Assembly: GCA_017469275.1 (NCBI GenBank)
Contig: JAFUGT010000132.1
Coordinates: 1-38,610 of the forward strand
Direction: 5' to 3'
Length of the DNA: 38,610 nt
DNA from: Lachnospiraceae bacterium
GTDB taxonomy: Bacteria > Bacillota > Clostridia > Lachnospirales > Lachnospiraceae
Part shown: positions 15,609-30,975 of the stretch, piece by piece
How positions within the stretch are numbered: position 1 is the stretch's first letter
How the letters are laid out: every line of letters starts with the position of its first letter
Notes under the pieces: model-generated
What the model saw: only the letters and a program-made list of their open reading frames with translations
Told to the model about the DNA's origin: nothing
Databases searched by the model: none
Position numbers and translations under genes: made by a program

Positions 15609-15642
15609 AGAAAAAGATTTTGATTTTGGGAGGGTTATGATT

Positions 15643-16743
15643 ATGGCAGACATAATGTTAACATCAGGAAGTAATTTTGAAGGCTATGATATTGTTGAAT
15701 ATCTTGGCTTCGTCAATGGACAAATTGCATTAAGTTCTAATTTCTTTAAGGATTTGTCTTCTAATCTTGCGGATTTTACCGCTCAGGAAAGTACGGCATT
15801 TACTAACAAACTTGAGAATGCCAGTGAGAATGCTATTGAGAATCTTATTAAGGTAGCGGAGAAGAGAGGCGCTAATGCATTGGTCGGCGTCGAACTTAAT
15901 TATACCAATTTTTCCGGTGGTTCTGTTGGTACAGTGGCATCCGGAACGGCAGTTATAATTAAGAAAAAAGCTCCTATCCATAAGATTATTACATCGAAAA
16001 TATATGTATCTAATTACTACAACATGCTTATGCCGCGACCGGTAGAGATCAACCTTGCAGGTGAGGATAATGTTGTTAAGATTTCGCCGACATTTTATAA
16101 TTATAATCAGGATGAGATTAAGGCGGTTCGTTGTGATGTGGAACTCACTAATTATTATGGTGATAAGATGCTTCTTCAGGGAATTGATTTTGTGTTTGAG
16201 AAGAATAATGTAACTAAGCTCAAAGCAGACTTTGTAGAATGTAAACTCCCTATGAAGGATATTCCGCTTATCAAAGATGTTAAGGTTTATGTTAAGAAGT
16301 ATGTTACCGAGAAGGGCGTATTTGCACCGGATGTTGATCCGATTGATATCACATTGTCTAGGAGAAACTTAGAAAGTCTCAAAGAAAAGCGTGGCAAAGA
16401 CGCTGTTGAAAGATATAAGTCCGATGGAACCACATGGCTTTGTAACTGTGGATATATCAATGCGGCAGGTGACGAGGAGTGTGCAATTTGCGGTCGTAAG
16501 GAAGCAGATCTGTCAATTAATGTAGGCTTTAATTATGAAGAAATGACAGACCGCATGAAGGGACAGCCTAATGTGGATGCAATGAAGGATATTCTTATGG
16601 AGTATATCAAGAAGGGTGCCATTGACGCCAAGTATCGTATGGAGCTTCTTGAGATTATGGAATCCGGAAGACAGTATGAGAAGACCAGAGGAGATATGAC
16701 AGATACAGTACTGGATAAGGTGCTTAAGGTATTTGAGAACTAA
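15643..16743 (+). CDS. YbjQ-like domain protein with C-terminal zinc ribbon
   Basis: With the ATG at 15643 (8 bases after GGGAGGG) the protein has 366 residues. An ATG six bases earlier is too close to the ribosome site. Residues about 5-110 resemble the YbjQ/DUF74 heavy-metal-binding fold (LTSGSNFEGYDIVEYLGFVN, AIENLIKVAEKRGANALVGV, GTVASGTAVII). A middle beta-rich domain is not recognised. Residues about 262-285 (WLCNCGYINAAGDEECAICG) are a four-Cys RanBP2-type zinc ribbon, followed by a helical tail. Two zinc or protein-binding modules suggest an adaptor rather than an enzyme. Followed by the HAD gene after 5 bases. Confidence 0.75.
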   Translation: MADIMLTSGSNFEGYDIVEYLGFVNGQIALSSNFFKDLSSNLADFTAQESTAFTNKLENASENAIENLIKVAEKRGANALVGVELNYTNFSGGSVGTVASGTAVIIKKKAPIHKIITSKIYVSNYYNMLMPRPVEINLAGEDNVVKISPTFYNYNQDEIKAVRCDVELTNYYGDKMLLQGIDFVFEKNNVTKLKADFVECKLPMKDIPLIKDVKVYVKKYVTEKGVFAPDVDPIDITLSRRNLESLKEKRGKDAVERYKSDGTTWLCNCGYINAAGDEECAICGRKEADLSINVGFNYEEMTDRMKGQPNVDAMKDILMEYIKKGAIDAKYRMELLEIMESGRQYEKTRGDMTDTVLDKVLKVFEN

Positions 16744-16748
16744 CTGAT

Positions 16749-17411
16749 ATGATAGATACAGTGATTTTTGACTTGGATGGAACGTTGCTTAATACGTTAG
16801 ATGATCTTATGGATAGTGTCAATTATGCACTTGGGAAGTTCGGTCTTTTGCCCAGATCAAGGCAGGAGGTTAGAGCCTTTTTGGGAAATGGTGCAGAGGT
16901 GTTGATGAACAAATCGATAGATGGAAGATTGGATGCTTCATCTACGGAAAAGTGCATTGAAACCTTCAAACACTATTACAAAGAACATATGGATATAAAG
17001 ACTAAACCCTATGAGGGAGTGCTGGAATTAATACGGGAACTCTTGAAAAAAGGTTATCATATGGCGATAGTATCTAATAAGTTTGATGCTGCGGTCAAAG
17101 GACTTAATGTTGATTACTTTGAGGGGTTGTTTCCCGTTGCAATCGGTGAGTCGTCAAAGGTTGCCAGAAAGCCGGCTCCGGACACAGTTGTTAAGGCGCT
17201 CAATGAACTTGGCAGTTCAACAGATCGGGCAATATATGTAGGCGACTCTGAGGTAGACATTATGACCGCCAAGAATTCGGGTTTGCCTTGTGTCAGCGTG
17301 ACCTGGGGGTTTAGGGATGAAGCATTGCTCAGTAATCTTGGCACAGATTATATAATTGATACACCGATGCAGCTTATTGAGGTTATAGAGCGGAGGAATA
17401 ATCAGTGCTGA
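16749..17411 (+). CDS. HAD-superfamily phosphatase, phosphoglycolate phosphatase-like
   Basis: The 220-residue protein has motif I DLDGTLLNTLDDL (nucleophile Asp9 and Asp11), a helical cap of the Gph/PGMB type, motif II at MAIVSNKFD, motif III Lys in VARKPAPD and motif IV YVGDSEVDIMTAK. All catalytic residues are present. Substrate cannot be assigned; relatives act on phosphoglycolate, pyrophosphate or sugar phosphates. It follows the YbjQ-like gene closely and overlaps the rhomboid gene by 7 bases, so the three are one operon. Confidence 0.88.
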   Translation: MIDTVIFDLDGTLLNTLDDLMDSVNYALGKFGLLPRSRQEVRAFLGNGAEVLMNKSIDGRLDASSTEKCIETFKHYYKEHMDIKTKPYEGVLELIRELLKKGYHMAIVSNKFDAAVKGLNVDYFEGLFPVAIGESSKVARKPAPDTVVKALNELGSSTDRAIYVGDSEVDIMTAKNSGLPCVSVTWGFRDEALLSNLGTDYIIDTPMQLIEVIERRNNQC

Positions 17412-18433
17412 ATCAGGTTGTTTCATTGCTAAAATATAGAGGATATCAGACATTTACCGTTGATGGCAGTATCGGTATCTACGTTAAAGAAAATGATGAT
17501 AAGGTACACATGATAATTCTATGTGCCTACAGATCCAATCTTACGTTAAATGATTACGAGAAGATAAGACAGGCTGCTGAATTCAATGTTGTTACAAGAT
17601 TCAAAAAGAAAGTTGAACCATTATTTGTAATTGTTAACAGAGACGGTATGTTTGATGATGAATTGACCACAATAGTATCCCGGTTGTCAGGTGTATGGCT
17701 TATGGCCGGAGATACAGGCAAGATATATATTTATGAGAATCAACCGACACACTTTGATGGTGACCTTAATGAATATCTTGAAAATAATCTTTTTAGAATT
17801 CGTGGTGATTATGACAAAGGAACATCGTTTCGTGTCACCCCTGTTAATATAACAATAGTAGTTATCAATGTACTTGTGTTTATAGCAGTGATGTTAATTA
17901 ATCGAAATGTTTTTGCTTCTTATGATGCGGATGTAATGTTGAAAATGGGAGCGTCGTCGTATAATTCATTTATTAGTGGACGCTATTATGAGCTTATTAC
18001 AGCGATGTTTTTGCATTTTGGAATCGCACATTTATTCAATAATATGTTGTTGTTGACATATATAGGATGTGAACTTGAGAGGCGAATAGGAGCATTGGCT
18101 TACGCTTTTGTATATATGGGAAGTGGGATTGCCGGGAATATTGTATCGTTAGTTCACTACAGCAGAGTTGGGGATAATGATATTGTGTCGGCAGGAGCGT
18201 CAGGAGCGATATTTGGTGTGATTGGATGCATGGCCTTATATCTGCTTATTAATCCATCTAAGGATAGAAATCTTACAACAAGGCGGTTGATGACGATGGC
18301 TTTGTTGACAATATATTATGGACTTACTAATGTGGGTGTTGATAACGCTGCACATATAGGCGGCTTTTGCTTTGGGATAATTAACGGTTTTTTATTGTCA
18401 AAGATTTTTCATTATGATAAAATTAAAGAATAA
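17405..18433 (+). CDS. Rhomboid-family intramembrane serine protease
   Basis: The 342-residue protein has a soluble N-terminal domain of about 135 residues, then about seven hydrophobic segments. Catalytic Ser266 lies in GASGAIFGVIG and His317 in AAHIGGFCFG; the L1/TM2 motif appears as HFGIAHLFNNMLLL. It should cleave transmembrane proteins within the bilayer. GTG start with CGGAGG upstream, overlapping the HAD gene. The large cytoplasmic front domain is common in clostridial and bacillar rhomboids (YqgP-like layout). Targets are unknown; neighbouring genes encode a possible envelope scaffold. Confidence 0.92.
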   Translation: MLNQVVSLLKYRGYQTFTVDGSIGIYVKENDDKVHMIILCAYRSNLTLNDYEKIRQAAEFNVVTRFKKKVEPLFVIVNRDGMFDDELTTIVSRLSGVWLMAGDTGKIYIYENQPTHFDGDLNEYLENNLFRIRGDYDKGTSFRVTPVNITIVVINVLVFIAVMLINRNVFASYDADVMLKMGASSYNSFISGRYYELITAMFLHFGIAHLFNNMLLLTYIGCELERRIGALAYAFVYMGSGIAGNIVSLVHYSRVGDNDIVSAGASGAIFGVIGCMALYLLINPSKDRNLTTRRLMTMALLTIYYGLTNVGVDNAAHIGGFCFGIINGFLLSKIFHYDKIKE

Positions 18434-18521: not shown

Positions 18522-21299
18522 GTGAGTACGGGAATCAGCATATCAAGTATTAATCGTATTAAGGAATTGGCAGAAGAGAAAAAATATGCGGAAGCCTTGG
18601 AAATACTAGATACACAGAACTTGGATAAATCTATCAATCCACAATTTTTGAGGATAAGTGGTGAGATTTTTCGAGAGAACAAAAGGTATTATGACAGTCG
18701 GCGTATCCTTTTGAAATCCCATGAGATGTCTCCGCAGGGAACAAGAATTATTGCAGAACTGATTCAGTTATATCTTGAGTTGGGTTATTATACAAGAGCT
18801 AAGAAGTATTACGAACAGTATCTTTTCTATTCAACTGAAGAGGATACTCAGCGTGATTATGTTGAATATATGTATAAGAAAGCTACAGGTGTTGATGTTA
18901 AAGAACTTGCATCAATTTTAATTCCTATATTGGAGGGAATGCCTGAGGATAAATGGAATTTTGAAGCTGTTTTATTATATGATAAGTTGGACAGAAAAGA
19001 TAGAGCCTTAGAAGAAGCGAGATATATATTGGAGCATTTTAAGGATTCCCAATATGTGAAGCCGGTCATAGAATATATAGATGACAAACTTGATGTAGAT
19101 GAGTATTTTTATGTTTATCCCAAGGAGGAGGTTCCTGAAGATAAAGAATTATATGGTGATCTGATAGAGAAAGAAGAAAAGATTCTCGAGGCGGATCATT
19201 ATAGAATGTATCCACCTGAGGCTAAGATAATAGTTGAGGTGGATGATAAGGATGCTATAGAGAGTAAACCTCCTAAGGAAAAGAAGGCAAAGAAAAAGAA
19301 AAAGTCTGCTAAGTTAGAAGAAAAGTCTGCTAAGGATGAAGCTGTGAAAGCCGAAGCAAAATCAACCGGTGATGAAGTTCAATCAGAAAATACCGATGAA
19401 ATAAAAGAATCTGATAAAAAACCGGACGATTCTAAGCAGCGAAATGATAAGGAAGATAAAACTTCTGAGAATTCCGGCAAAGCTGATGATAATTTATCTG
19501 AATCGACGAAGCAGGAAGATAATGCTGAGGAACTGGAAAGAAAGAGAATAGAGGAAGAAGAGGCTCTCAAGAAGAAAGAAAGAGAAGCAGCTTTGGAAAA
19601 AATCCTTTCAAAGACTAAGAATATTGATAAAGAATCAATTAAGGAATCTGCAAAGCAGATGGTTAAGAATGTCGGAGAGGATACAAAGAAGGCCAGGCAG
19701 CAAGTTAAGAAAGTAACCGGTTCGGTAATGGATAATGTTCAAAAGGCAACAGATTCATTGAGTGATGCAGTGGGTACCGCAAAAGTACAACAGACATTTG
19801 AAAAATCCGGTGAAGAATTTGTTGATGGCATTATAGAGAGTGTAATAGAACCACCAAAGAAATCTGTTGGTGAAGTTGTCACCAATGAAGAGTTGGATGC
19901 CTTGGTTCCTGATTCACTAGAGGCTATGTCGACTGAAGAAGTTGCAGAAATCGAAGCCAGAAAAGAAGAACAGGAAAGAGAAGAATTAGAAGAATTGGAA
20001 GCTGCTGTTGAGGCAGAGGAGAGTAAAAAGAAAAAGAGAAGAAAGAAAAAGAGAAAAGAGTCAGAACCTGATGAAACCGAAAACATAGGCGATAATCCTC
20101 AAGTTGATTCTGATGAAAAGAATGTGGATTCAGATAATAAGAGGGCTGATTCGGATAAGACGAATACTGATTCGAATAAGACAGATGGTGATTCGGACAA
20201 GAATAATGATAATTCTAATGATGAATCAAAGGATAAGGCAGAGGATGTTATAGTTGCTGCTTCATCAATTCAAAGTGAAGTGATTGCAACAGTAACTTTT
20301 GCTGAATTGAGGGAGAAATTCCTTGCTGCAAATGAGGAAAAAGAAGATGAGGAAGAGAAACCTCTAGAGTCGTTAGGCTTTATATCGGTTGTTCAATCAG
20401 ATGTTGACGAGAAGTTGGAGAATGATTCGCCTGAGACAGCAGAGATACTTCATAGAATGATTAACAACAAGGAGTATTACGCAGGTGAAGATTCAAGAGG
20501 ATTTGAATCAAAGGCAAGTTATGAAAATCATGGCTTCGAAGTAGAAAATTTTGACTTTGATGAATATATTAATCCTAGTGTAGAACCGGAAATTATAACA
20601 ACAGATGAAAAAATATACAAAGTCGAAGAAATATATTCTGAAAATACAGTTGAAGAATTTGATTTTATCGCTCCGGAGCAAGATATAAAAGTTGATGATG
20701 TAGTCGACGAGGTGACAGTTAAACCGGAAGAAATAGTGGAGTCGATAGAGGAAAATTCAATTGAACCGGAAGAGGTAACGGAGAACCTAGAGGAAGCAAC
20801 TGCCGAGCCGGAAGAAGTAACGGAGAACCTAGAGGAAGCAACTGCTGAACCGGAAGAGGTAAGGGAGATTGTAGAGGAAGCATCTGTCGAACCGAAAGAG
20901 GTAAGGGAGATTGTAGAGGAAGCAACTGCCGAACCGGAAGAGGTAAGGGAGATTGTAGAAGAAGCAACTGCCGAACCGGAAGAGGTAAGGGAGATTGTAG
21001 AAGAAGCATCTGTAGAGTCGGAAGAGGTAAGGGAGATTGTAGAGGAAGCAACTGCCGAACCGGAGCCGATGACGGAGGTTGTATGGGAAGCAACTGTCGA
21101 ACCGGAGCCAATGACAGAGGTTGTAGAAGAAGCAACTGTCGAGCCGGAGCCAATGACGGAGGCTCTTGAAGAAACAACATCTGAGACAGAAGATGTAATA
21201 AATATAGATGATTTTAATAACAGAGATATGTTGAGATTCAGAATTGTTTTGACAGAGCGTATGGTTAAAGGATTACTAGATTTAAAAGAAAGTAGATGA
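18522..21299 (+). CDS. TPR protein with long charged low-complexity region and 14-residue acidic repeats
   Basis: With the GTG at 18522 (8 bases after GAGGTG) the protein has 925 residues. Residues about 1-215 are helical-hairpin repeats of TPR type (AEEKKYAEALEILDTQ, ENKRYYDSRRILLKSHEMSP, ELGYYTRAKKYYEQYL, KDRALEEARYILEHF). Residues about 240-700 are highly charged (Lys/Glu/Asp/Ser runs) and probably disordered, with helical Glu/Arg stretches. Residues about 729-882 are eleven 14-residue repeats of EEATAEPEEVREIV type. The end (NRDMLRFRIVLTERMVKGLL) looks folded. No signal peptide or membrane span: cytoplasmic scaffold. It lies 6 bases before the next gene, so the pair is co-translated. No known family beyond TPR. 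Confidence 0.8.
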   Translation: MSTGISISSINRIKELAEEKKYAEALEILDTQNLDKSINPQFLRISGEIFRENKRYYDSRRILLKSHEMSPQGTRIIAELIQLYLELGYYTRAKKYYEQYLFYSTEEDTQRDYVEYMYKKATGVDVKELASILIPILEGMPEDKWNFEAVLLYDKLDRKDRALEEARYILEHFKDSQYVKPVIEYIDDKLDVDEYFYVYPKEEVPEDKELYGDLIEKEEKILEADHYRMYPPEAKIIVEVDDKDAIESKPPKEKKAKKKKKSAKLEEKSAKDEAVKAEAKSTGDEVQSENTDEIKESDKKPDDSKQRNDKEDKTSENSGKADDNLSESTKQEDNAEELERKRIEEEEALKKKEREAALEKILSKTKNIDKESIKESAKQMVKNVGEDTKKARQQVKKVTGSVMDNVQKATDSLSDAVGTAKVQQTFEKSGEEFVDGIIESVIEPPKKSVGEVVTNEELDALVPDSLEAMSTEEVAEIEARKEEQEREELEELEAAVEAEESKKKKRRKKKRKESEPDETENIGDNPQVDSDEKNVDSDNKRADSDKTNTDSNKTDGDSDKNNDNSNDESKDKAEDVIVAASSIQSEVIATVTFAELREKFLAANEEKEDEEEKPLESLGFISVVQSDVDEKLENDSPETAEILHRMINNKEYYAGEDSRGFESKASYENHGFEVENFDFDEYINPSVEPEIITTDEKIYKVEEIYSENTVEEFDFIAPEQDIKVDDVVDEVTVKPEEIVESIEENSIEPEEVTENLEEATAEPEEVTENLEEATAEPEEVREIVEEASVEPKEVREIVEEATAEPEEVREIVEEATAEPEEVREIVEEASVESEEVREIVEEATAEPEPMTEVVWEATVEPEPMTEVVEEATVEPEPMTEALEETTSETEDVINIDDFNNRDMLRFRIVLTERMVKGLLDLKESR
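20706..21167 (+). repeat. Eleven 42-base in-frame tandem repeats in the TPR gene
   Basis: Units start with GA(A/G)GAA GC(A) AC/TCT and encode 14 residues with Glu-Pro-Glu-Glu-Val near the middle. The first two and last three units are more divergent (last three have EPEPMTE), while central units are almost identical, as expected from recent unequal exchange or slippage. Unit length keeps the reading frame. Confidence 0.9.
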
Positions 21300-21305
21300 T
21301 AAAAT

Positions 21306-24290
21306 ATGGCAATTCAGTTAAGGGGCGGCGGTAATAAAAATTCGCCAAAAGGAAATGGGGGAACATCACAGGGAGCCTCCGTTGAGGAAACTCCGGAAAT
21401 GAGGGAAGCGCGTTTGAAACGTGAAGCTCAAGCTGCTGCTGCGAAGGAAGCATTAGCCAAGCAGCAGGAAGAAATGAGACTTCGTGCATTAGCTTTTGAA
21501 CAGCGTGACGCTGCAAGAAGGCAAAGAGAACAGCAAAGGTTAGAGGAAGAAGAATTAAGAAATAATCCCGAACTGGCTGCTGAACATGCCAGAAGGATTG
21601 CGGCGCAAAAAGCTGAAGAAGAACAACGTGAAAGATTTAAAGCTGAAGAGCAAGCAAAAATTCAAGCTGAAAGGCGGGTGCAGGAGAAGAATATGGATCA
21701 AACAGAAGCGTTAATTGCAGCTATCAGAGCTCAAGTAGAAAAAGAGAAAGCGGCTAAGGCGGGAGCAGCAGGAGCGAATGCCGGAGGAAAATCGGGTTCG
21801 GGAGCTTCTAAAGATGAGAGTAAACCGAAGCCGACATTTAAAACTATTTCTCCGGAGGAGATGGCTAGAATTGAAGAAAAGAGACGCCTCAAACAATCAG
21901 GACAGATGCCTGCCGAAGAAAAGAAGAGTTCTCCGGATTTATCGAGTTCATCACAAGGTGTTTCGGGTGGCTTAGGAGGTCTTTCGGGTGGTCCTACACT
22001 TTCTAATCCGGTAGGCAATGGTCCTACACTTTCGGATATTAATAAAGGACAACAAAGCTTAACAGACACCGGTATTGGCGGTGGACTGGGCATTGATATT
22101 ACCGCATCTGTTAATGCCTCATCTGGCAGTGATGAGAGTACAATAACTCTTAACACAGATGAAATCAATGCAGCGGTTGAAAAATCACAAAGTTCTACTG
22201 TGGAGCCGGTGAAAACCGTACCAACTCCAAATGTGACTACGCCGACTCCTCATAAGCCTGTTCCTGAACCGGTTCAGGTTGTTGGTGGAAGCAGTACAAT
22301 AATTGTTGAGGACGGAAGTGACGGATGGGGTTCTTCTACTGAAGAGACAGAAAACGAGGCAAGTTGGGTTGATGTAGGAGCTAAGCCACAAGCTGTTAAA
22401 TCTGTTTCGGGAGATAATAAAGGAGCAATTACTGACGAGAATGGTAATCTGATTAGTGTGATACCCGTAAAACAAAGACCTGGTACAACAAACGATGTTC
22501 AGAGTGCTTATAATATTGATTTTGATGATGACGATTATGATGATGTCGGATTGACATTTGTTTCAACGGATGATTCATTTGATTCTGCTGCTGAAGCTAG
22601 AAAGCGTGAGGAAGAAGAAAGACAAAGAGCTGAAGAAGCTAAGAGGCAGGAAGAAATCGAGAATAAGCGTAGAGCTGCTGAAGAGGCGATGCGTAAAGCT
22701 GAAGAAGAACAGAGACGTATTAGAGAAGCTGAAATGAAAGCTGCAGAAGAAGCTAAACGCAAAGCCGAGGAAGAGGCAAGACGTAAAGCTGAAGAAGAGG
22801 AAGCTAAACGTAAAGCCGAGGAAGAGGCAAGACGTAAAGCCGAAGAGGAAGCAAGACGTAAGGCCGAGGAAGAGGCAAGACGCAAAGCCGAAGAGGAAGC
22901 AAGACGTAAGGCCGAGGAAGAAGCAAGACGTAAAGCCGAGGAAGAGGCAAGACGTAAGGCCGAGGACGAGGCAAGACGTAAAGCCGAGGAAGAGGCAAGA
23001 CGTAAAGCCGAAGAGGAAGCAAGACGTAAAGCCGAAGAGGAAGCAAGACGTAAAGCAGAGGAAGAGGCAAGACGTAAGGCAGAGGAAGAGGCAAGACGTA
23101 AAGCAGAGGAAGAGGCAAGACGTAAAGCAGAGGAAGAGGCAAGACGTAAAGCCGAAGAAGAAGCAAGACGTAAAGCCGAAGAGGAAGCAAGACGTAAGGC
23201 AGAGGAAGAGGCGAGACGCAAAGCCGAAGAGGAAGCAAGACGTAAAGCCGAAGAAGAAGCAAGACGTAAAGCCGAAGAGGAAGCAAGACGTAAGGCAGAG
23301 GAAGAGGCGAGACGCAAAGCCGAAGAAGAGGCAAGACGTAAAGCAGAGGAAGAGGCGAGACGCAAAGCCGAAGAAGAGGCGAGAATTAAGGCTGAGGAAG
23401 AGGCACAGCGCAAAGCTGAAGAAGAAGCACTTAAATATCAGAAGATGGCTGAGGAGGCTGCTAAGAAAGCTGAGGAAGCAAGAAGAGCTCTCGAGGAAGT
23501 TAAAAAACATTCTTCTGCAGCTTATGAAAAAACGGTTGAGACTAAGGAAGAACCTAAAAATGAAGCACCGGTTGTTAATTCCGGAGAATATACTTTGCCG
23601 GTTGGTGCTGAACAGTATCTTGGTAAGTATCTAAGTGTTGATTCGATAAGTAATCAGATATTAGATGCCATTAAGTATATTAGTGAGAACCCGTCTGAGC
23701 CTAGAAATATTGTGATTTTAGGACAATATGGATTTGGTACAACAACGATTGCAGAAGACTTTGCAAGAAGTTTCCATGCAATGGGAATATGTAAAACCAA
23801 GACGATTGCTAAGATTAAAGCCGGTGCTCTCAACAGAGCTAATATATCAGATGCATTAGAGAAGCTTCAGGGCGGATGTCTTGTGGTTGAAAATGCCGGA
23901 GTTATATCAGAACAAAAATTAGATGAGATATATAGAATAATCAGTAACCCGGATAATGATGTTGTAGTGATCATGACAGGACAGATTGAGACATTATCTA
24001 AGATATTCAAAGATAATGTAATTATCTCATCACAGTTTAAACATTTGATTCAGGTTCATAGAATCACTGATGTAGACGTATTTACAATTGCTAAGAATCA
24101 TGCGGGCAAACTTGGTTATCCATGTGAACCGGCTGCTGAAAGCAGTTTGAGACGTCGCATGCAGGAGGTTGAAAGCGGCAATCTGGACAGAGTGCTTAAG
24201 TTTGTTGATAACGCTGTTTCCAAAGCACATAATCGTGAAATGAGTTCAGGTGATCAGAATCACAGATTAGTCGCTTCAGATTTTGAATAA
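21306..24290 (+). CDS. Coiled-coil/single-alpha-helix protein with degenerate AAA-like C-terminal domain
   Basis: The protein has 994 residues. Residues about 28-150 are charged coiled coil; 150-425 are low-complexity linker rich in Gly, Ser, Pro and Asp; 429-740 are a long charged helix built on KAEEEARR octads; 762-994 resemble a CbbX/SpoVK-like AAA module. The P-loop position reads GQYGFGTTT (806-814), with Thr812 where Lys should be, and the Walker B position reads GCLVVENAG (857-865), ending in Glu-Asn instead of Asp-Glu. Ser/Arg sensors are not clear. It may bind nucleotide weakly or act as a dead adaptor. It follows the TPR gene by 6 bases and precedes mreB after a terminator. No signal peptide. 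Confidence 0.8.
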   Translation: MAIQLRGGGNKNSPKGNGGTSQGASVEETPEMREARLKREAQAAAAKEALAKQQEEMRLRALAFEQRDAARRQREQQRLEEEELRNNPELAAEHARRIAAQKAEEEQRERFKAEEQAKIQAERRVQEKNMDQTEALIAAIRAQVEKEKAAKAGAAGANAGGKSGSGASKDESKPKPTFKTISPEEMARIEEKRRLKQSGQMPAEEKKSSPDLSSSSQGVSGGLGGLSGGPTLSNPVGNGPTLSDINKGQQSLTDTGIGGGLGIDITASVNASSGSDESTITLNTDEINAAVEKSQSSTVEPVKTVPTPNVTTPTPHKPVPEPVQVVGGSSTIIVEDGSDGWGSSTEETENEASWVDVGAKPQAVKSVSGDNKGAITDENGNLISVIPVKQRPGTTNDVQSAYNIDFDDDDYDDVGLTFVSTDDSFDSAAEARKREEEERQRAEEAKRQEEIENKRRAAEEAMRKAEEEQRRIREAEMKAAEEAKRKAEEEARRKAEEEEAKRKAEEEARRKAEEEARRKAEEEARRKAEEEARRKAEEEARRKAEEEARRKAEDEARRKAEEEARRKAEEEARRKAEEEARRKAEEEARRKAEEEARRKAEEEARRKAEEEARRKAEEEARRKAEEEARRKAEEEARRKAEEEARRKAEEEARRKAEEEARRKAEEEARRKAEEEARRKAEEEARRKAEEEARIKAEEEAQRKAEEEALKYQKMAEEAAKKAEEARRALEEVKKHSSAAYEKTVETKEEPKNEAPVVNSGEYTLPVGAEQYLGKYLSVDSISNQILDAIKYISENPSEPRNIVILGQYGFGTTTIAEDFARSFHAMGICKTKTIAKIKAGALNRANISDALEKLQGGCLVVENAGVISEQKLDEIYRIISNPDNDVVVIMTGQIETLSKIFKDNVIISSQFKHLIQVHRITDVDVFTIAKNHAGKLGYPCEPAAESSLRRRMQEVESGNLDRVLKFVDNAVSKAHNREMSSGDQNHRLVASDFE
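22749..23432 (+). repeat. About 28 tandem 24-base in-frame repeats (KAEEEARR octads)
   Basis: The 24-base unit (AARGCNGARGARGARGCRAG then ACGY pattern) recurs without frame loss; variation is nearly all at third positions, plus one EDE and one inserted EE. Mixed higher-order patterns of GCC/GCA and GAG/GAA codons recur, pointing to block duplication. An 8-residue period does not keep a heptad stripe, so this favours a lone charged helix over a classical coiled coil. Confidence 0.93.
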
Positions 24291-24305
24291 GCATTAATTT
24301 TTTAG

Positions 24306-24352
24306 AAAAATACAGAAAAAACAATTAGGACTTGTTTTTTCTGTATTTTTTG
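24306..24352 (+). terminator. Terminator between the AAA-like gene and mreB
   Basis: AAAAATACAGAAAAAACAA (24306-24324) pairs with 24332-24350 around TTAGGAC, ending in a T-run. mreB therefore has its own promoter. Confidence 0.88.
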
Positions 24353-24364
24353 TTATTATTGTAG

Positions 24365-24393
24365 TTGGTTAAAATTTATGTAAACAATATAAA
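24365..24393 (+). promoter_or_regulatory. mreB promoter
   Basis: TTGGTT (24365-24370), 17 bases, TATAAA (24388-24393), just after the terminator and 55 bases before the mreB start. Confidence 0.5.
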
Positions 24394-24448
24394 GTTGAAT
24401 ATAACTGATTTTTATAGAGATAATTTTTTACGAGTAGGAGAAAAGAAA

Positions 24449-25432
24449 ATGTTCGATATGGATATAGGAATTGACTTAGGTACTGCTAATGTACTGGTTT
24501 TTGTTAAAGGAAAAGGTATTGTTATTAATCAACCATCTGTAGTAGCATTTGAGAAGAAAACAAAGAGACTTATTGCAATCGGTAATAAAGCAAAGCAGAT
24601 GATGGGAAAGACCCCTGATAATATAGAGGTTATACGTCCATTGAAACAGGGGGTTATTTCTGATTTTACAGTGACGGAAAGAATGTTAAAAGCATTTATA
24701 GAAACGGCAATGCAGAAAAAGAAGATGTTTTCAAGACCGAGGATATGTGTATGTGTTCCAAGCGGTGTAACAGAAGTAGAACGCAGAGCTGTTGAAGATG
24801 CTGTGTATAATACCGGTGCAAAGCATGTCGATATTATGGAGGAACCGATAGCTGCAGCTATTGGTGCGGATATAGATATAGCAATGCCTAGAGGTACCAT
24901 GATAGTTGATATTGGAGGCGGTACCACGGATGTTGCCGTTATATCTCTGGGAGGAATAGTTGAAAGTAATTCCTTGAAATTGGCCGGAGATGATTACAAT
25001 GAAGCAATGATAAAATATATCAGAAGAACCTATAATCTGTTGATAGGTGAACCGACGGCTGAGAAGATTAAGATGGGAATTGGTACGGTATACCCGAGGG
25101 AAGAGCCTGTTACCATGGAAGTTAAAGGAAGAGATCTCGTTACAGGTTTTCCTGCCAGAATAGTGGTTTCTTCGGAAGAAACTATTGAGGCTTTTGCGGA
25201 AGTTACAGCTCAGATACTTGATACTGTACATAATGTACTGGAAATTGCACCGCCTGAACTGGTTGCTGACATTGCTGAACATGGCATTGTTCTTACTGGC
25301 GGTGGAAGCCTTATATACGGTATGGATAAATTAATAGAGGAGAGCACAGGTATCAATGCTATAGTTTCACCTACGGCTTTGGAAGCAGTTGTTATGGGTG
25401 CGGGTAGATCCGTAAATTATCTCAATAAATGA
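24449..25432 (+). CDS. mreB: MreB/Mbl-type bacterial actin, cell-shape protein
   Basis: With the ATG at 24449 (after AGGAG) the protein has 327 residues, normal for MreB; an open frame upstream to 24365 covers the promoter and is not used. Actin-fold motifs are present: phosphate-1 DIGIDLGTANVLVFVKGKG, connect-1 and phosphate-2 IVDIGGGTTDVAVISLGG, EEPIAAAIGA, and adenosine motif IVLTGGGSLIYG. MreB polymerises under the membrane and guides lateral wall synthesis. mreC/mreD are not next to it, so this may be a stand-alone paralogue. Its neighbours upstream are the TPR and long-helix scaffold proteins. Confidence 0.95.
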   Translation: MFDMDIGIDLGTANVLVFVKGKGIVINQPSVVAFEKKTKRLIAIGNKAKQMMGKTPDNIEVIRPLKQGVISDFTVTERMLKAFIETAMQKKKMFSRPRICVCVPSGVTEVERRAVEDAVYNTGAKHVDIMEEPIAAAIGADIDIAMPRGTMIVDIGGGTTDVAVISLGGIVESNSLKLAGDDYNEAMIKYIRRTYNLLIGEPTAEKIKMGIGTVYPREEPVTMEVKGRDLVTGFPARIVVSSEETIEAFAEVTAQILDTVHNVLEIAPPELVADIAEHGIVLTGGGSLIYGMDKLIEESTGINAIVSPTALEAVVMGAGRSVNYLNK

Positions 25433-26131: not shown

Positions 26132-27472
26132 ATGTCAGAGTTAATGCTTTCATTAGAGCAGATTGAAAAAGAAAAGGGAATATCGAAGGATGTGATCATT
26201 GATTCCATTGAGAAGGGAATATGTGACGCGTATAATAAGTATTATGGAAAAAATGAGAATGCGGTTGTTCATATGAATCGTGAGACCGGTGAGATGGAAG
26301 TGTTTGCCAATAAAATTGTTGTTGATGAAGTGACGGAGGATGCTTTGGAGATTTCTCTTGAAAAGGCACGCATGATCAGCACAAAATATGAGCTTGGTGA
26401 TACGGTACCTGTTCCGGTTACTCCTAAAGATTTCGGAAGAATTGCAGCACAACATGCCAGAAGTATTATTATTCAGAAGATTAAAGAGGAAGAGAAGAGA
26501 TTACTCTATGAGTACTTCTATCAAAAGGAAAAGGATATTGTTACAGGAGTTGTACAGCGTTATGTAGGTAATAATATTTCGATCAATTTGGATGACAAGA
26601 TGGATGTTTTACTTATGGAAAGTGAACAGGTGAAATCAGAGCATTATCGTCCCAAAGATCGCATAAAGTTATATGTGGTAGGTGTAAAAAAGCCGGATAA
26701 TGATAATCCTGATAACACCGAAAAAGAAGGCAAGAAGAAAAACAAAGGTGCTAAGGGACCCAAGGTTATTGTATCAAGAACGCATAAGGATCTTGTGAAG
26801 CGTTTATTGGAGAAGGAAGTTACCGAGATTAATGATGGAATTGTTGAAATCAAATCAATCTCAAGAGAGCCGGGTTCAAGATCAAAGATTGCAGTATGGT
26901 CAAATGATCCAAATGTTGATGCTTTAGGGGCATGTGTTGGAAAGAATGGTAACAGGGTAAACAATATAGTAGATGACCTTTTTGGTGAGAAGATAGACAT
27001 TATTAACTGGGATGAGAATCCTGCCATTTATATTGAAAATGCGTTATCTCCGTCTGAAGTATTATCTGTTAAAGTTGACGAGGAGGATAAGAGCGCAAGA
27101 GTTGTTGTTCCTGATGATAAGTTGTCACTTGCAATTGGTAAAGAAGGTCAGAATGCCAGATTGGCTGCAAGATTAACCGGTTATAAGATTGATATAAAGA
27201 GTGAGTCACAGGCCAGAGAAGCTTATGGATACGGTGAAGATGATTATGATGATTACGATGATGAATATAATTCAGACGAATATCGTGATGATTATGATGA
27301 TGAATACCGCGAAGAATATGATGGTGACGAATATCGTGATGACTATGACGATGAAGAGTATCGTGATGATTATGATGATGAATATTCAGAAGATGAATAT
27401 CAGGATGGTTATGATGAAGAGGAATACTCTGACGATTATGATCAGGAAAGTGACCAGGATTCAAAGGATTGA
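26132..27472 (+). CDS. nusA: Transcription factor NusA with an extra Asp/Tyr-rich tail
   Basis: Residues 1-364 are a standard NusA: RNA-polymerase-binding N-domain (LMLSLEQIEKEKGISKDVII), S1 domain (about 134-200, carrying a Lys-rich insert NTEKEGKKKNKGAKGPK), KH1 and KH2 (LSLAIGKEGQNARLAARLTG). Residues 365-446 are an 82-residue tail with 30 Asp, 16 Glu and 18 Tyr, in loose repeats of EYRDDYDDE type. Firmicute NusA normally ends soon after KH2. NusA controls pausing, termination and antitermination; the tail adds a large negative, aromatic arm. AAGGAGG precedes the ATG. Confidence 0.97.
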   Translation: MSELMLSLEQIEKEKGISKDVIIDSIEKGICDAYNKYYGKNENAVVHMNRETGEMEVFANKIVVDEVTEDALEISLEKARMISTKYELGDTVPVPVTPKDFGRIAAQHARSIIIQKIKEEEKRLLYEYFYQKEKDIVTGVVQRYVGNNISINLDDKMDVLLMESEQVKSEHYRPKDRIKLYVVGVKKPDNDNPDNTEKEGKKKNKGAKGPKVIVSRTHKDLVKRLLEKEVTEINDGIVEIKSISREPGSRSKIAVWSNDPNVDALGACVGKNGNRVNNIVDDLFGEKIDIINWDENPAIYIENALSPSEVLSVKVDEEDKSARVVVPDDKLSLAIGKEGQNARLAARLTGYKIDIKSESQAREAYGYGEDDYDDYDDEYNSDEYRDDYDDEYREEYDGDEYRDDYDDEEYRDDYDDEYSEDEYQDGYDEEEYSDDYDQESDQDSKD

Positions 27473-28110: not shown

Positions 28111-30975
28111 TTGGCGAAAATCAGAGTATATGAGTTAGCAAAAAGTCTTGGTAAAGACAGTAAAGAGATTATAGAGTTATTAAAGAAAAACGGTATAGAA
28201 GTAAAGAATCATATGAGTTCAGTCACTGACGAGGATGCGGCAAAGGTTAAAGCACGTTATACAAAAAATTCTACGGGTAATGGTGAAAAGCCTGTGTCTC
28301 AGGCGAAGGAAGCAACGGATCAGACAGAGAAGAAAACTGTTGAAGCAGATAATGTAAAAAAGACTAATGCCAGTCCTAATGCTGATAAAAAAGAGGGCGA
28401 GCGTTCTGCAAGACCTGAGGGAATAAAAAAAGAAGGTGACCGCTCCGTAAGAGCTGAAGGAGTAAGGAAAGAGGGCGAGCGCTCCGTAAGACCTGAAGGA
28501 GCAAGAAAAGAAGGAGACCGTCCTGTAAGACCGGAGGGAGCGAGAAGAGATGGAGATCGTCCTGTAAGGCCTGAAGGAGTCAAAAGAGAAGGAGACCGTC
28601 CTGCAAGACCTGAAGGAGCAAGAAGAGATGGAAACCGTCCTGCAAGACCTGAAGGAGCGAGAAGAGATGGAGATCGTCCTGCAAGACCGGAGGGAGCGAG
28701 AAGAGATGGAGACCGCCCGATGAGAAGAGACGGAGATCGTCCTATGAGAAGAGATGGAGACCGCAGAGATTTTGGTAATCGTCCGTCAGGAGACCGCCCT
28801 GTAAGAAGAGACGGGGATCGCAGAGACTTTGGTAATCGTCCGTCAGGAGACCGCCCTGTAAGAAGAGATGGAGATCGCAGAGATTTTGGCAATCGTCCGT
28901 CAGGAGACCGTCCTGTAAGAAGAGATAATGACAGGAGAGATGGCGACAGAAGAGATTTTGCAGGTAATGGTGGAAGAAGAGACGGTGGAAGACGAGATGA
29001 AAGAATTTCTATTCCTGCACCGATGGATCGTGCTTCTATGGATAGAGACCGCATGGATCGTCACAAAGATAAAAAAGAGAGAGAAAAGACATCTCAGTTC
29101 GAAGATGGAGATAGCAGAAAGAGAAATCGTAAAAAGAATAACGAGCATTTCACTGTCAAAGGAACAAAACCTGTTAATAAACCGGTACAGAAGCCTAAGC
29201 CGAAGGAGCCTGAAGAACCGGTTATCCGCACAATTGAACTTCCGGAAGTCCTTTCCGTACAGGATCTTGCCGATAAGTTGAAGACTCCGGTTTCACAGCT
29301 TATTAAGAAGTTATTCCTTGCAGGTGAAATGGTAACAGTTAATACTGATCTTGATTTTGAGAAGGCTGCAGAGATTGCTCTTGAGTATAACTGCATTGCT
29401 GAGGAAGAGGTAAAGGTAGACCTTATTGAAGAGATGCTTAAAGAGGAAGAGGAGGATGAATCACTGTTAAAGGAGAGACCTCCTGTTGTCTGTGTAATGG
29501 GTCATGTCGATCATGGTAAAACATCGCTTCTTGATGCTATACGTGAAACCTCTGTTACATCAGGAGAAGCCGGTGGAATTACGCAGCATATCGGTGCCTA
29601 TACTGTTGATGTTAACGGTCAGCAGATAACATTCTTAGATACTCCGGGTCATGAAGCATTTACTGCTATGCGTATGCGAGGCGCACAGTCTACCGATATT
29701 GCAATTCTGGTCGTTGCCGCAGATGACGGCGTTATGCCTCAGACCATAGAGGCTATTAACCATGCAAAAGCGGCCGGAATAGAGATTATTGTGGCAGTTA
29801 ACAAGATAGATAAAGAGAGCGCTAATGTAGACAGAGTTAAGCAGGAGCTTATGGAATATGAGCTCGTTGCAGAAGACTGGGGCGGTTCAACTGTATTTTG
29901 TCCGGTATCTGCACATACCAAAGAGGGTATTGATAATCTTTTGGAGATGATACTTTTGACGGCTGAGGTGTTAGAGCTTAAGGCCAATCCAAACAGAAAA
30001 GCCAGAGGTATTGTAATAGAGGCAGAGATTGATAAAGGAAGAGGTTCGGTTGCAACTGTTCTTGTTCAGAAGGGAACTCTTAGAAAGGGTGAAACCATCT
30101 CTGTTGGTAAGGCATATGGACATATAAGAGCCATGATAAATGATAAGGGAAAAGAAGTTACTGAGGCCGGTCCTTCTACTCCGGTTGAGATTCTTGGACT
30201 TCATGATGTTCCTGCTGCAGGTGACGTGTTTGTGGCAACCAAGAACGAGAAAGAAGCAAGAGCCATGGCTGAGACTTATGTGACGGTAGAGAAGGAGAAA
30301 CTTGTTGCAGAGACTAAGGCAAAAATGTCTCTTGATGATCTGTATTCACAGATACAGGCAGGCAATCTTAAGGAACTTAATATTGTCGTTAAAGCTGATG
30401 TACAGGGTTCAGTAGAGGCTGTTAAACAAAGTCTTCTAAAGTTGTCTAATGAAGAGGTTGTTATTAAGGTTATTCATGCCGGTGTTGGTGCGATTAATGA
30501 GTCGGACGTAATACTTGCATCTGCATCAAATGCGATTATTATCGGATTTAATGTAAGACCTGACGTACAGGCCAAGGATGTTGCTGAGAGAGAAAAAGTC
30601 GACCTTAGACTTTACAAGGTTATATATGACGCAATCTCTGATATTGAGAGTGCTATGAAGGGTATGTTAGATCCTATATATGAAGAGAAGGTAACAGGAC
30701 ATTTGATCGTTCGTCAGACATTTAAGGCTTCAGGCGTTGGTACCATTGCAGGATGTTTTGTACTTGATGGACTTATCAGACGTGGATCATCTGTGCGTGT
30801 TACAAGGGATGAAGAGCAGATATATGAGGGTTCTTTGGCATCACTTAAACGTTTCAAGGATGATGTGAAAGAGGTTAAGAACGGATTTGAATGTGGTATT
30901 GTTCTTGAGGAATTCAACGATCTCAAAGAGGATGATCAGATTGAAGCATATGAAATGGTTGAGGTGCCGAGATAG
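28111..30975 (+). CDS. infB: Translation initiation factor IF-2 with long Arg/Asp repeat region
   Basis: The 954-residue protein delivers initiator fMet-tRNA to the 30S subunit. It starts at TTG 28111 after [25 protein letters not shown] is the IF2-N domain. Residues about 100-300 are Arg/Asp/Gly/Pro-rich repeats. A second IF2-N-like segment ([20 protein letters not shown]) precedes the G domain: G1 GHVDHGKT (about 466-473), G3 DTPGHEAF, G4 NKID. Domains II, III and the C-terminal tRNA-binding part ([20 protein letters not shown]) are complete. The repeat region makes it longer than B. subtilis IF-2. Confidence 0.98.
28411..28917 (+). repeat. In-frame repeats in infB: eight 39-base and three 57-base units
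   Basis: Eight 13-residue units of the [13 protein letters not shown] type (28411-28722) are followed by RRDGDRPM and three almost identical 19-residue units of [19 protein letters not shown] (28747-28917). The last three differ mainly at synonymous sites. The region is disordered by composition and slightly positive. Confidence 0.9.

Follow-up and report, generated by a model that had tools for sequence, protein, structure and literature searches.

A candidate cytoskeletal scaffold module with a split TPR-AAA pair and its own MreB paralogue in one clade of Lachnospiraceae

CbbX is the activase of red-type Rubisco, and EccA is the AAA-ATPase of type VII secretion. In one study, SpoVK is described as an AAA+ chaperone of sporulation that activates the wall enzyme MurG, with an active ATPase and a short N-terminal domain of its own, and EccA as carrying a TPR N-terminus (PMC10659427). 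Charged single alpha-helices (SAHs) are formed by the AEEEKKK and AEEEKRK designs, with Arg-richer designs having aggregated, according to another study (PMC5347031). The locus considered here lies in a stretch of 38,610 nucleotides (the window; contig JAFUGT010000132.1 of assembly GCA_017469275.1) from the draft genome of a Lachnospiraceae bacterium (182 contigs, 2.8 Mb, completeness 82.6%), where genes for a TPR protein, a protein with a charged rod and an AAA domain, and MreB follow one another. It is read here, tentatively and at slightly less than even confidence, as a clade-specific cytoskeletal scaffold module of four parts: a YbjQ-domain protein with a zinc-finger-like end (YbjQ-zinc), an adaptor with a TPR fold, a pseudo-AAA protein tethered to a rod, and an MreB paralogue dedicated to the module (class C). 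No description of this gene combination was found in the open-licence papers searched, and the initial annotation of the sequence had likewise known of no described system of this make-up.

The TPR protein (925 amino acids (aa), 18522..21299, + strand) and the rod and pseudo-AAA protein (994 aa, 21306..24290, +) are separated by six bases from stop to start. The initial annotation had seen two long, repeat-rich and signal-less open reading frames (ORFs) at this spacing, followed by MreB, with TPR in the first; the ORFs and repeat units confirm this layout, and no 19-residue segment of either protein reaches a hydropathy of 1.6 (peaks 1.55 and 0.82). The N-terminal 225 residues of the TPR protein (domain at 18522..19187, +) are predicted to adopt a TPR fold (predicted local distance difference test (pLDDT) score 94), with helices in antiparallel pairs and with TPR proteins dominating the structure hit lists. 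The domain scores below the Pfam cut-off in the window's protein, and TPR_14 is matched at E 0.01 by 24 of 42 members. A search with the AAA domain in 200 genomes of the same family, the source included, gave matches at E 0.001 in 186, the weaker of which are possibly other AAA proteins, and close matches (E 1e-47 or better) in ten genomes, with the next best at 1e-21. TPR and AAA parts occur in one ORF in all 30 loci of other Lachnospiraceae inspected (TPR 38-103 bits, AAA 64-112 bits), these loci being mostly the better-scoring distant matches (E 1e-21 to about 1e-10) and no random draw. By this comparison, the window's two proteins correspond to the split halves of their relatives' single chain, and since such fusion is strong evidence that two halves work together, a TPR-AAA partnership is well supported. 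When a profile of the fused type was run against the ten close genomes, the best match in each was the clade's own protein (97-137 bits) and all others scored 89 bits or less; a second AAA match in genome G000 (contig C108), considered as a fused copy, does not look like one, being a 500-aa ORF of another kind. With no separate fused copy in these ten genomes, the fused form seems to have been replaced in this clade by the split one. Among 148 genomes drawn from the class (five of them in the family), only family members gave matches above 160 bits (three genomes, 164-228 bits).

The AAA domain of the window (23598..24287, +) has no AAA family of Pfam above cut-off. Its model (pLDDT 92.6) has CbbX as the best solved match in Foldseek and VIA-align, and profile matches in the PDB under E 0.01 were limited to CbbX and EccA1 (9lur, EccA1, E=5e-6), so that by profile and predicted fold it is nearest to the SpoVK/CbbX/EccA clade. 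The Walker A motif is degenerate (GQYGFGTT, 23721..23744, +), with threonine in place of lysine. In an alignment of 65 sequences of the window's clade (64 of the 77 available loci plus the window), the Walker A lysine is absent throughout (0/65), the Walker B column holds Glu (58/65) or Asp (7/65), and the position of the catalytic Glu holds Asn (61/65) or Ser (4/65). The lysine and catalytic glutamate columns make the clade's domain a probable pseudo-ATPase; Walker A is intact in 20 of the 30 fused relatives. In addition, the GY sensor-1 signature is not kept (G is followed by E in 56/65 and by Q in 9/65), the column of the first arginine finger holds Arg in only 2/65, with Asn four residues before it in 34/65, and R198, near the start of a late helix, is invariant (65/65) and a candidate sensor-2. 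The AAA-like end proposed initially is, on these columns, a probable pseudo-ATPase.

The module resembles EccA in pairing a TPR N-terminus (PMC10659427) with an AAA+ domain of the same higher-order clade, and the EccA model TIGR03922 is matched at E 0.01 by 14 of 18 fused relatives. However, the fused relative shown in full scores 25 bits against an EccA cut-off of 466.65, the protein of the window shows no match to EccA at E 0.1, and the module differs in its separate genes, its long charged rod, and its lost catalytic residues. SpoVK has a related AAA+ domain, with wall synthesis as a plausible common field; as described in that study, it has no TPR or rod (PMC10659427), and its model TIGR02881 gives the fused relative shown 32 bits against a cut-off of 422.95. 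Unlike CbbX, the module's AAA domain lacks the Walker A Lys, the catalytic Glu, and the GY sensor-1 signature, and it appears not to keep the arginine fingers.

The MreB of the window (327 aa, 24449..25432, +) scores 446.9 bits against PRK13927 (cut-off 293) and has the nucleotide-binding motifs of MreB/Mbl. Three MreB classes were distinguished among the Lachnospiraceae examined, namely class A, a solo copy present in nearly all of 24 genomes looked at, class B, in the mreBCD operon of some genomes, and class C, beside the TPR-AAA pair. On the MreB tree, a single branch sets off each class from the rest (84/99 for the 60 rows of class C, 96/81 for the 19 of class A, and 100/100 for the 7 of class B), and the window's MreB is on this tree a dedicated paralogue of class C, neither the mreBCD class B nor the widespread class A protein. 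The class-specific residues amount to only six mild sites, and 15 of 19 class C rows carry DIGGGT exactly, the others having DIGxGT. With the class C profile, nine of the 200 family genomes gave at least 529 bits and the next best 480.5, in a survey where four genomes had no MreB match at cut-off. A relocated mreBCD gene was not supported as the source of class C, which groups with class A and apart from the long-branched class B at 100/100, and a simple replacement of class B was weakened as an explanation, for G131, the genome nearest to those with the module, also lacks class B. Among 20 mreC loci, class B MreB was present in seven and absent from 13, and the nine loci that come from module genomes or G131 are all among these 13. 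In the source genome, 82.6% complete, no mreC was found. As a side observation, in these mreC-mreD-PBP2 operons (L163-L182) the class B MreB, where present (7/20), is very divergent.

For the neighbourhood survey, the best 80 of 122 relatives were kept, with loci from named genomes. MreB directly follows the AAA gene in 57 of the 80 loci; in addition, it lies two ORFs after the AAA gene in L074 and follows a broken AAA ORF in L100, one locus (L097, from G131) is fused, and two (L136 and L141) were not assignable. The TPR gene lies ahead of the AAA gene in 39 of 43 loci (in the remaining four, the contig ends within 0.7-2 kb), and YbjQ-zinc in turn lies ahead of the TPR gene in 38 of those 39. 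YbjQ-zinc (368 aa, 15637..16743, +; PF01906 above cut-off) joins a YbjQ domain to a C-terminal four-cysteine zinc-finger-like part, and its four Cys are invariant in 20 relatives. In full-length form, it scores at least 511 bits in the same nine of 200 genomes as class C MreB, the next best reaching 147, and all nine are among the ten with a close AAA match. On this genomic evidence, YbjQ-zinc is a fourth core gene, and the module is borne by one group of gut and rumen bacteria and inherited as a set with its own MreB. Members of this group that can be cultured include Eubacterium ruminantium and the Lachnospiraceae strains AC2031 and NE2001. The rhomboid protease gene (17405..18433, +; PF01694) occurs in only 12 of 39 loci and is a neighbour, not a core gene. 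The scaffold proposed initially, with MreB and with the rhomboid at its side, survives as a conserved three-gene neighbourhood, and the rare adjacency that would have spoken against it was not seen for the long form; the rhomboid was rejected as a part of the module, the rod as a ruler is not supported, and YbjQ-zinc had been missed. Beyond it come the one-chain relatives, the probable pseudo-ATPase, the separate MreB clade, and a hairpin ahead of mreB. Two loci titled Bacteroidales or Bacteroides (L079 and L120) share the gene order of the Lachnospiraceae loci and are probably mislabelled metagenome bins.

The rod/AAA protein contains a charged SAH-like stretch (residues 422-734, 22569..23507, +), inside which lies a 24-bp unit in 28.4 copies (22746-23429, +). 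Twenty-six contiguous octads occupy residues 501-708, with RRKAEEEA in 22 of them. Opposite charges at i,i+4 number 194 against 75 in shuffles, an excess of 19 standard deviations, and Ile, Leu, Val, Met, Phe, Trp, or Tyr account for 11 of the 313 residues, leaving no hydrophobic seam. The stretch is a good candidate for a single alpha-helix, as the octad helix first noted had been taken to be. In charge and in i,i+4 pairing, the octads resemble the AEEEXXX designs of PMC5347031; they differ in having two arginines each, and since Arg-rich designs aggregated in that work, a monomeric state of the module's rod is not assured. By a composition rule devised for this analysis, a rod-like stretch of at least 69 residues is present in 45 of 46 distinct long ORFs (of at least 600 aa, with seven duplicate loci dropped and with shorter contig-cut ORFs left aside), the exception being L109, which lacks its 5' part and has a longest readable rod of 31 residues; in a comparison set, a stretch of at least 60 residues was found in one of 819 other genes. 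A helical motif, DQREALIAAVRAQVEKE, is located close to or at the N-terminal end of the AAA protein in most lineages and, in the window, at residues 131-147 (DQTEALIAAIRAQVEKE, 21696..21746, +). A loose pattern found it in 45 of the 46 long ORFs, L109 again being the one missed. In the fused G131 protein, it stands between the TPR part and the AAA part; it was found in none of the 30 distant fused proteins. The motif marks the split point and is a candidate docking site. Cornifin, the only Pfam match of the whole rod/AAA protein above cut-off, falls on the repeats, and the Cornifin and Senescence hits were rejected as lying on repeats or weak. TolA has an N-terminal membrane anchor; the match to its model (TIGR02794, 71.9 bits, cut-off 59.45) was rejected as a low-complexity hit on the repeats, given the hydropathy peak of 0.82 and the AAA fold at the C-terminus.

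If the scaffold reading is correct, the TPR and AAA proteins would remain binding partners, the dead AAA domain would serve as a binding or ring-forming platform and no motor, and the rod would be a stiff spacer of no set length. The N-terminal motif and the TPR groove would dock partners, and the assembly would tie membrane-bound class C MreB filaments to clients in the cytosol, working by binding and not by ATP. Wall or glycan enzymes would be the likeliest clients, from the analogy of SpoVK and MurG. A split pair beside MreB fits such an envelope role. Physical contact with MreB is moderately supported by the gene context, and the identity of the clients is a guess.

Several observations weigh against this reading. 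The gene directly after the fused gene is glgB, not mreB, in 14 of the 30 fused loci (L042-L071), and six of these 30 relatives carry rod-like stretches of 90-154 residues, most having none, so that the rod also occurs outside the MreB-linked form. Eighteen of the 80 loci hold stand-alone AAA paralogues with no recognised TPR or MreB neighbour (L122, L125, L128-L134, L137, L140, L142, L143, L146, L147, and L150-L152; in L131 and L151, the contig ends within 0.2 kb downstream). In 29 of 58 loci, a terminator-like hairpin comparable to that of the window stands between the AAA gene and mreB. This count is a lower bound, since the scoring rule misses the window's own hairpin (24305..24351, +), which probably places the window's mreB on a separate transcript. 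In the draft genome G002, the MreB gene adjoins a YgiQ-type gene (by eye) and not the AAA gene. G131 has neither class C MreB nor YbjQ-zinc despite its ATPase-dead fused protein. A proxy tree was built from five linked proteins in 20 genomes (G000 left out, and two of the five proteins missing in four to five genomes). On it, the eight module genomes group together (100/99), and G131 is their sister; because they are one clade, the trait set appears to have arisen about once, and the nine-of-nine co-occurrence amounts to about one gain and not to nine independent cases. Finally, the NusA-like protein of the window (26132-27472) has a long acidic tail rich in Asp and Tyr, and the IF2-like protein (28111-30975; both named by eye) has a low-complexity repeat region, so that repeat growth may be a habit of the source genome.

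The stand-alone pseudo-AAA paralogues are 374-446 aa long, begin with a distinct MKPFxNAYDAIKKLL sequence (possibly an amphipathic helix), and form one clade (100/100) nested among the split proteins on the AAA tree, which was thinned by hand to 86 rows. Neighbours differ among four such loci seen closer (pur, hisS, guaA-like, and yicC-like, by eye), and some sub-groups have common neighbours.

In a first alternative, unlikely though well short of negligible, the TPR and AAA proteins cooperate and the link to MreB is only positional, the order thyA-dfrA-ybjQ-TPR-AAA-mreB-thl having been fixed in one ancestor and then inherited. The single clade of module genomes, the hairpin between the AAA and MreB genes, and a dead AAA domain without class C MreB in G131 are all consistent with it, as are the flanking thyA, dfrA, and thl, which are syntenic in many loci. 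However, TPR, AAA, MreB, and YbjQ-zinc stay together while the rhomboid, HAD, YgiQ, and downstream genes vary among loci, and in G002, the AAA, MreB-C, and YbjQ-zinc parts lie on separate contigs (C7, C45, and C64), unlinked and all present. The fused protein of G131 (L034/L097) is 1108 aa long with a dead Walker A and the motif inside it, and it is possibly an evolutionary intermediate. A dead AAA domain without class C MreB suggests that the loss of activity probably predates the MreB link, and the simplest order would be ATPase loss and motif gain, followed by the gene split, with MreB-C and YbjQ-zinc arriving at that stage. Taken by itself, the AAA tree places G131 inside the split group (93/81) and would also be compatible with a later re-fusion in that genome.

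A second and rather improbable alternative is a dedicated adaptor of one envelope or glycan enzyme, in the manner of SpoVK for MurG and CbbX for Rubisco, with MreB-C merely in the same pathway; with ATP hydrolysis lost, binding alone would be enough. It is favoured by CbbX and EccA1 as best solved relatives, by the NCBIfam model spore_V_K, to which 17 of 18 fused relatives give a match at E 0.01 (the one shown in full scoring below cut-off), by the activation of MurG by SpoVK (PMC10659427), and by the position of the fused gene directly before glgB in the 14 loci, from which the fused TPR-AAA protein is possibly a dedicated factor of glycogen metabolism. On the other hand, the catalytic residues used by such chaperones are lost here, and glgB, which occurs in all 24 genomes examined, module genomes included, is not among the labelled neighbours in the surveyed module loci. 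The presence of glgB in all 24 does not decide for or against glycogen as the field of the split form. Anti-phage defence was also considered and rejected, with no PADLOC match at E 0.01 for four sequences.

A more specific and still less probable version of the MreB link is a new kind of linker, in which dead AAA rings with stiff charged-helix arms would bind a dedicated second MreB through the tips and the TPR clamp, and so space or bundle its filaments in the cytoplasm without ATP. At 0.15 nm per residue, such arms would measure about 47 nm in the window and 10 to 75 nm elsewhere. The same spread speaks against the initial proposal of a ruler fixing more than 30 nm between an MreB- or membrane-bound end and the AAA end, since the longest rod-like stretch ranges from 69 to 501 residues, more than sevenfold (231 to 387 in the window's near relatives), and the motif-to-AAA distance from 324 to 954, so that the rod appears conserved as a kind and not in length; apparent purifying selection on octads that fit a stiff charged helix speaks for a ruler, which is nonetheless very improbable. 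Equally hard to credit is neutral low-complexity growth in the linkers of ordinary proteins, for although NusA and IF2 also bear repeats, array lengths vary, and the 14-residue repeats are weakly constrained, the rod is kept in 45 of 46 long ORFs and single-base codon differences over all octad pairs, which are not independent, are synonymous in 947 cases and non-synonymous in 49, a ratio of 0.05 against 3.5 expected from codon opportunities, so that selection on the protein seems to maintain the octads.

The acidic 14-residue repeats of the TPR protein (20763..21148, +), reported initially and recovered as a 42-bp unit in 9.2 copies, show 97 non-synonymous and 87 synonymous differences (ratio 1.1 against 3.2 expected) and appear constrained weakly at most. 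Undetermined bases occur inside the repeat region of the TPR gene in L032 and L079, and array lengths from draft assemblies may therefore be unreliable. A conserved LKExR end of the TPR protein was dropped as a candidate, being found in only 17 of 49 sequences. Two starts differ from the ORF list, which gives GTG 18513 for the TPR gene and TTG 24365 for MreB; GTG 18522 with GAGGTG ahead, the start also given by the initial annotation, and ATG 24449 with AGGAG ahead are better. Other genes of the window were named by eye from the sequence, namely a HAD-type phosphatase at 16749-17411 and, downstream, rimP, nusA, and infB.

If the scaffold reading holds, MreB would gain a partner system made of a pseudo-ATPase and a natural bacterial single-helix rod. 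Its origin would be traceable from a fused protein with an active-type AAA domain, through a fused protein with a dead one as in G131, to a split pair with its own MreB. It would also give a lead to the function of the TPR-AAA protein of many Lachnospiraceae, which has no specific Pfam or NCBIfam family match, and it would bear on the absence of the usual mreB from the mreCD operon in many of these bacteria.

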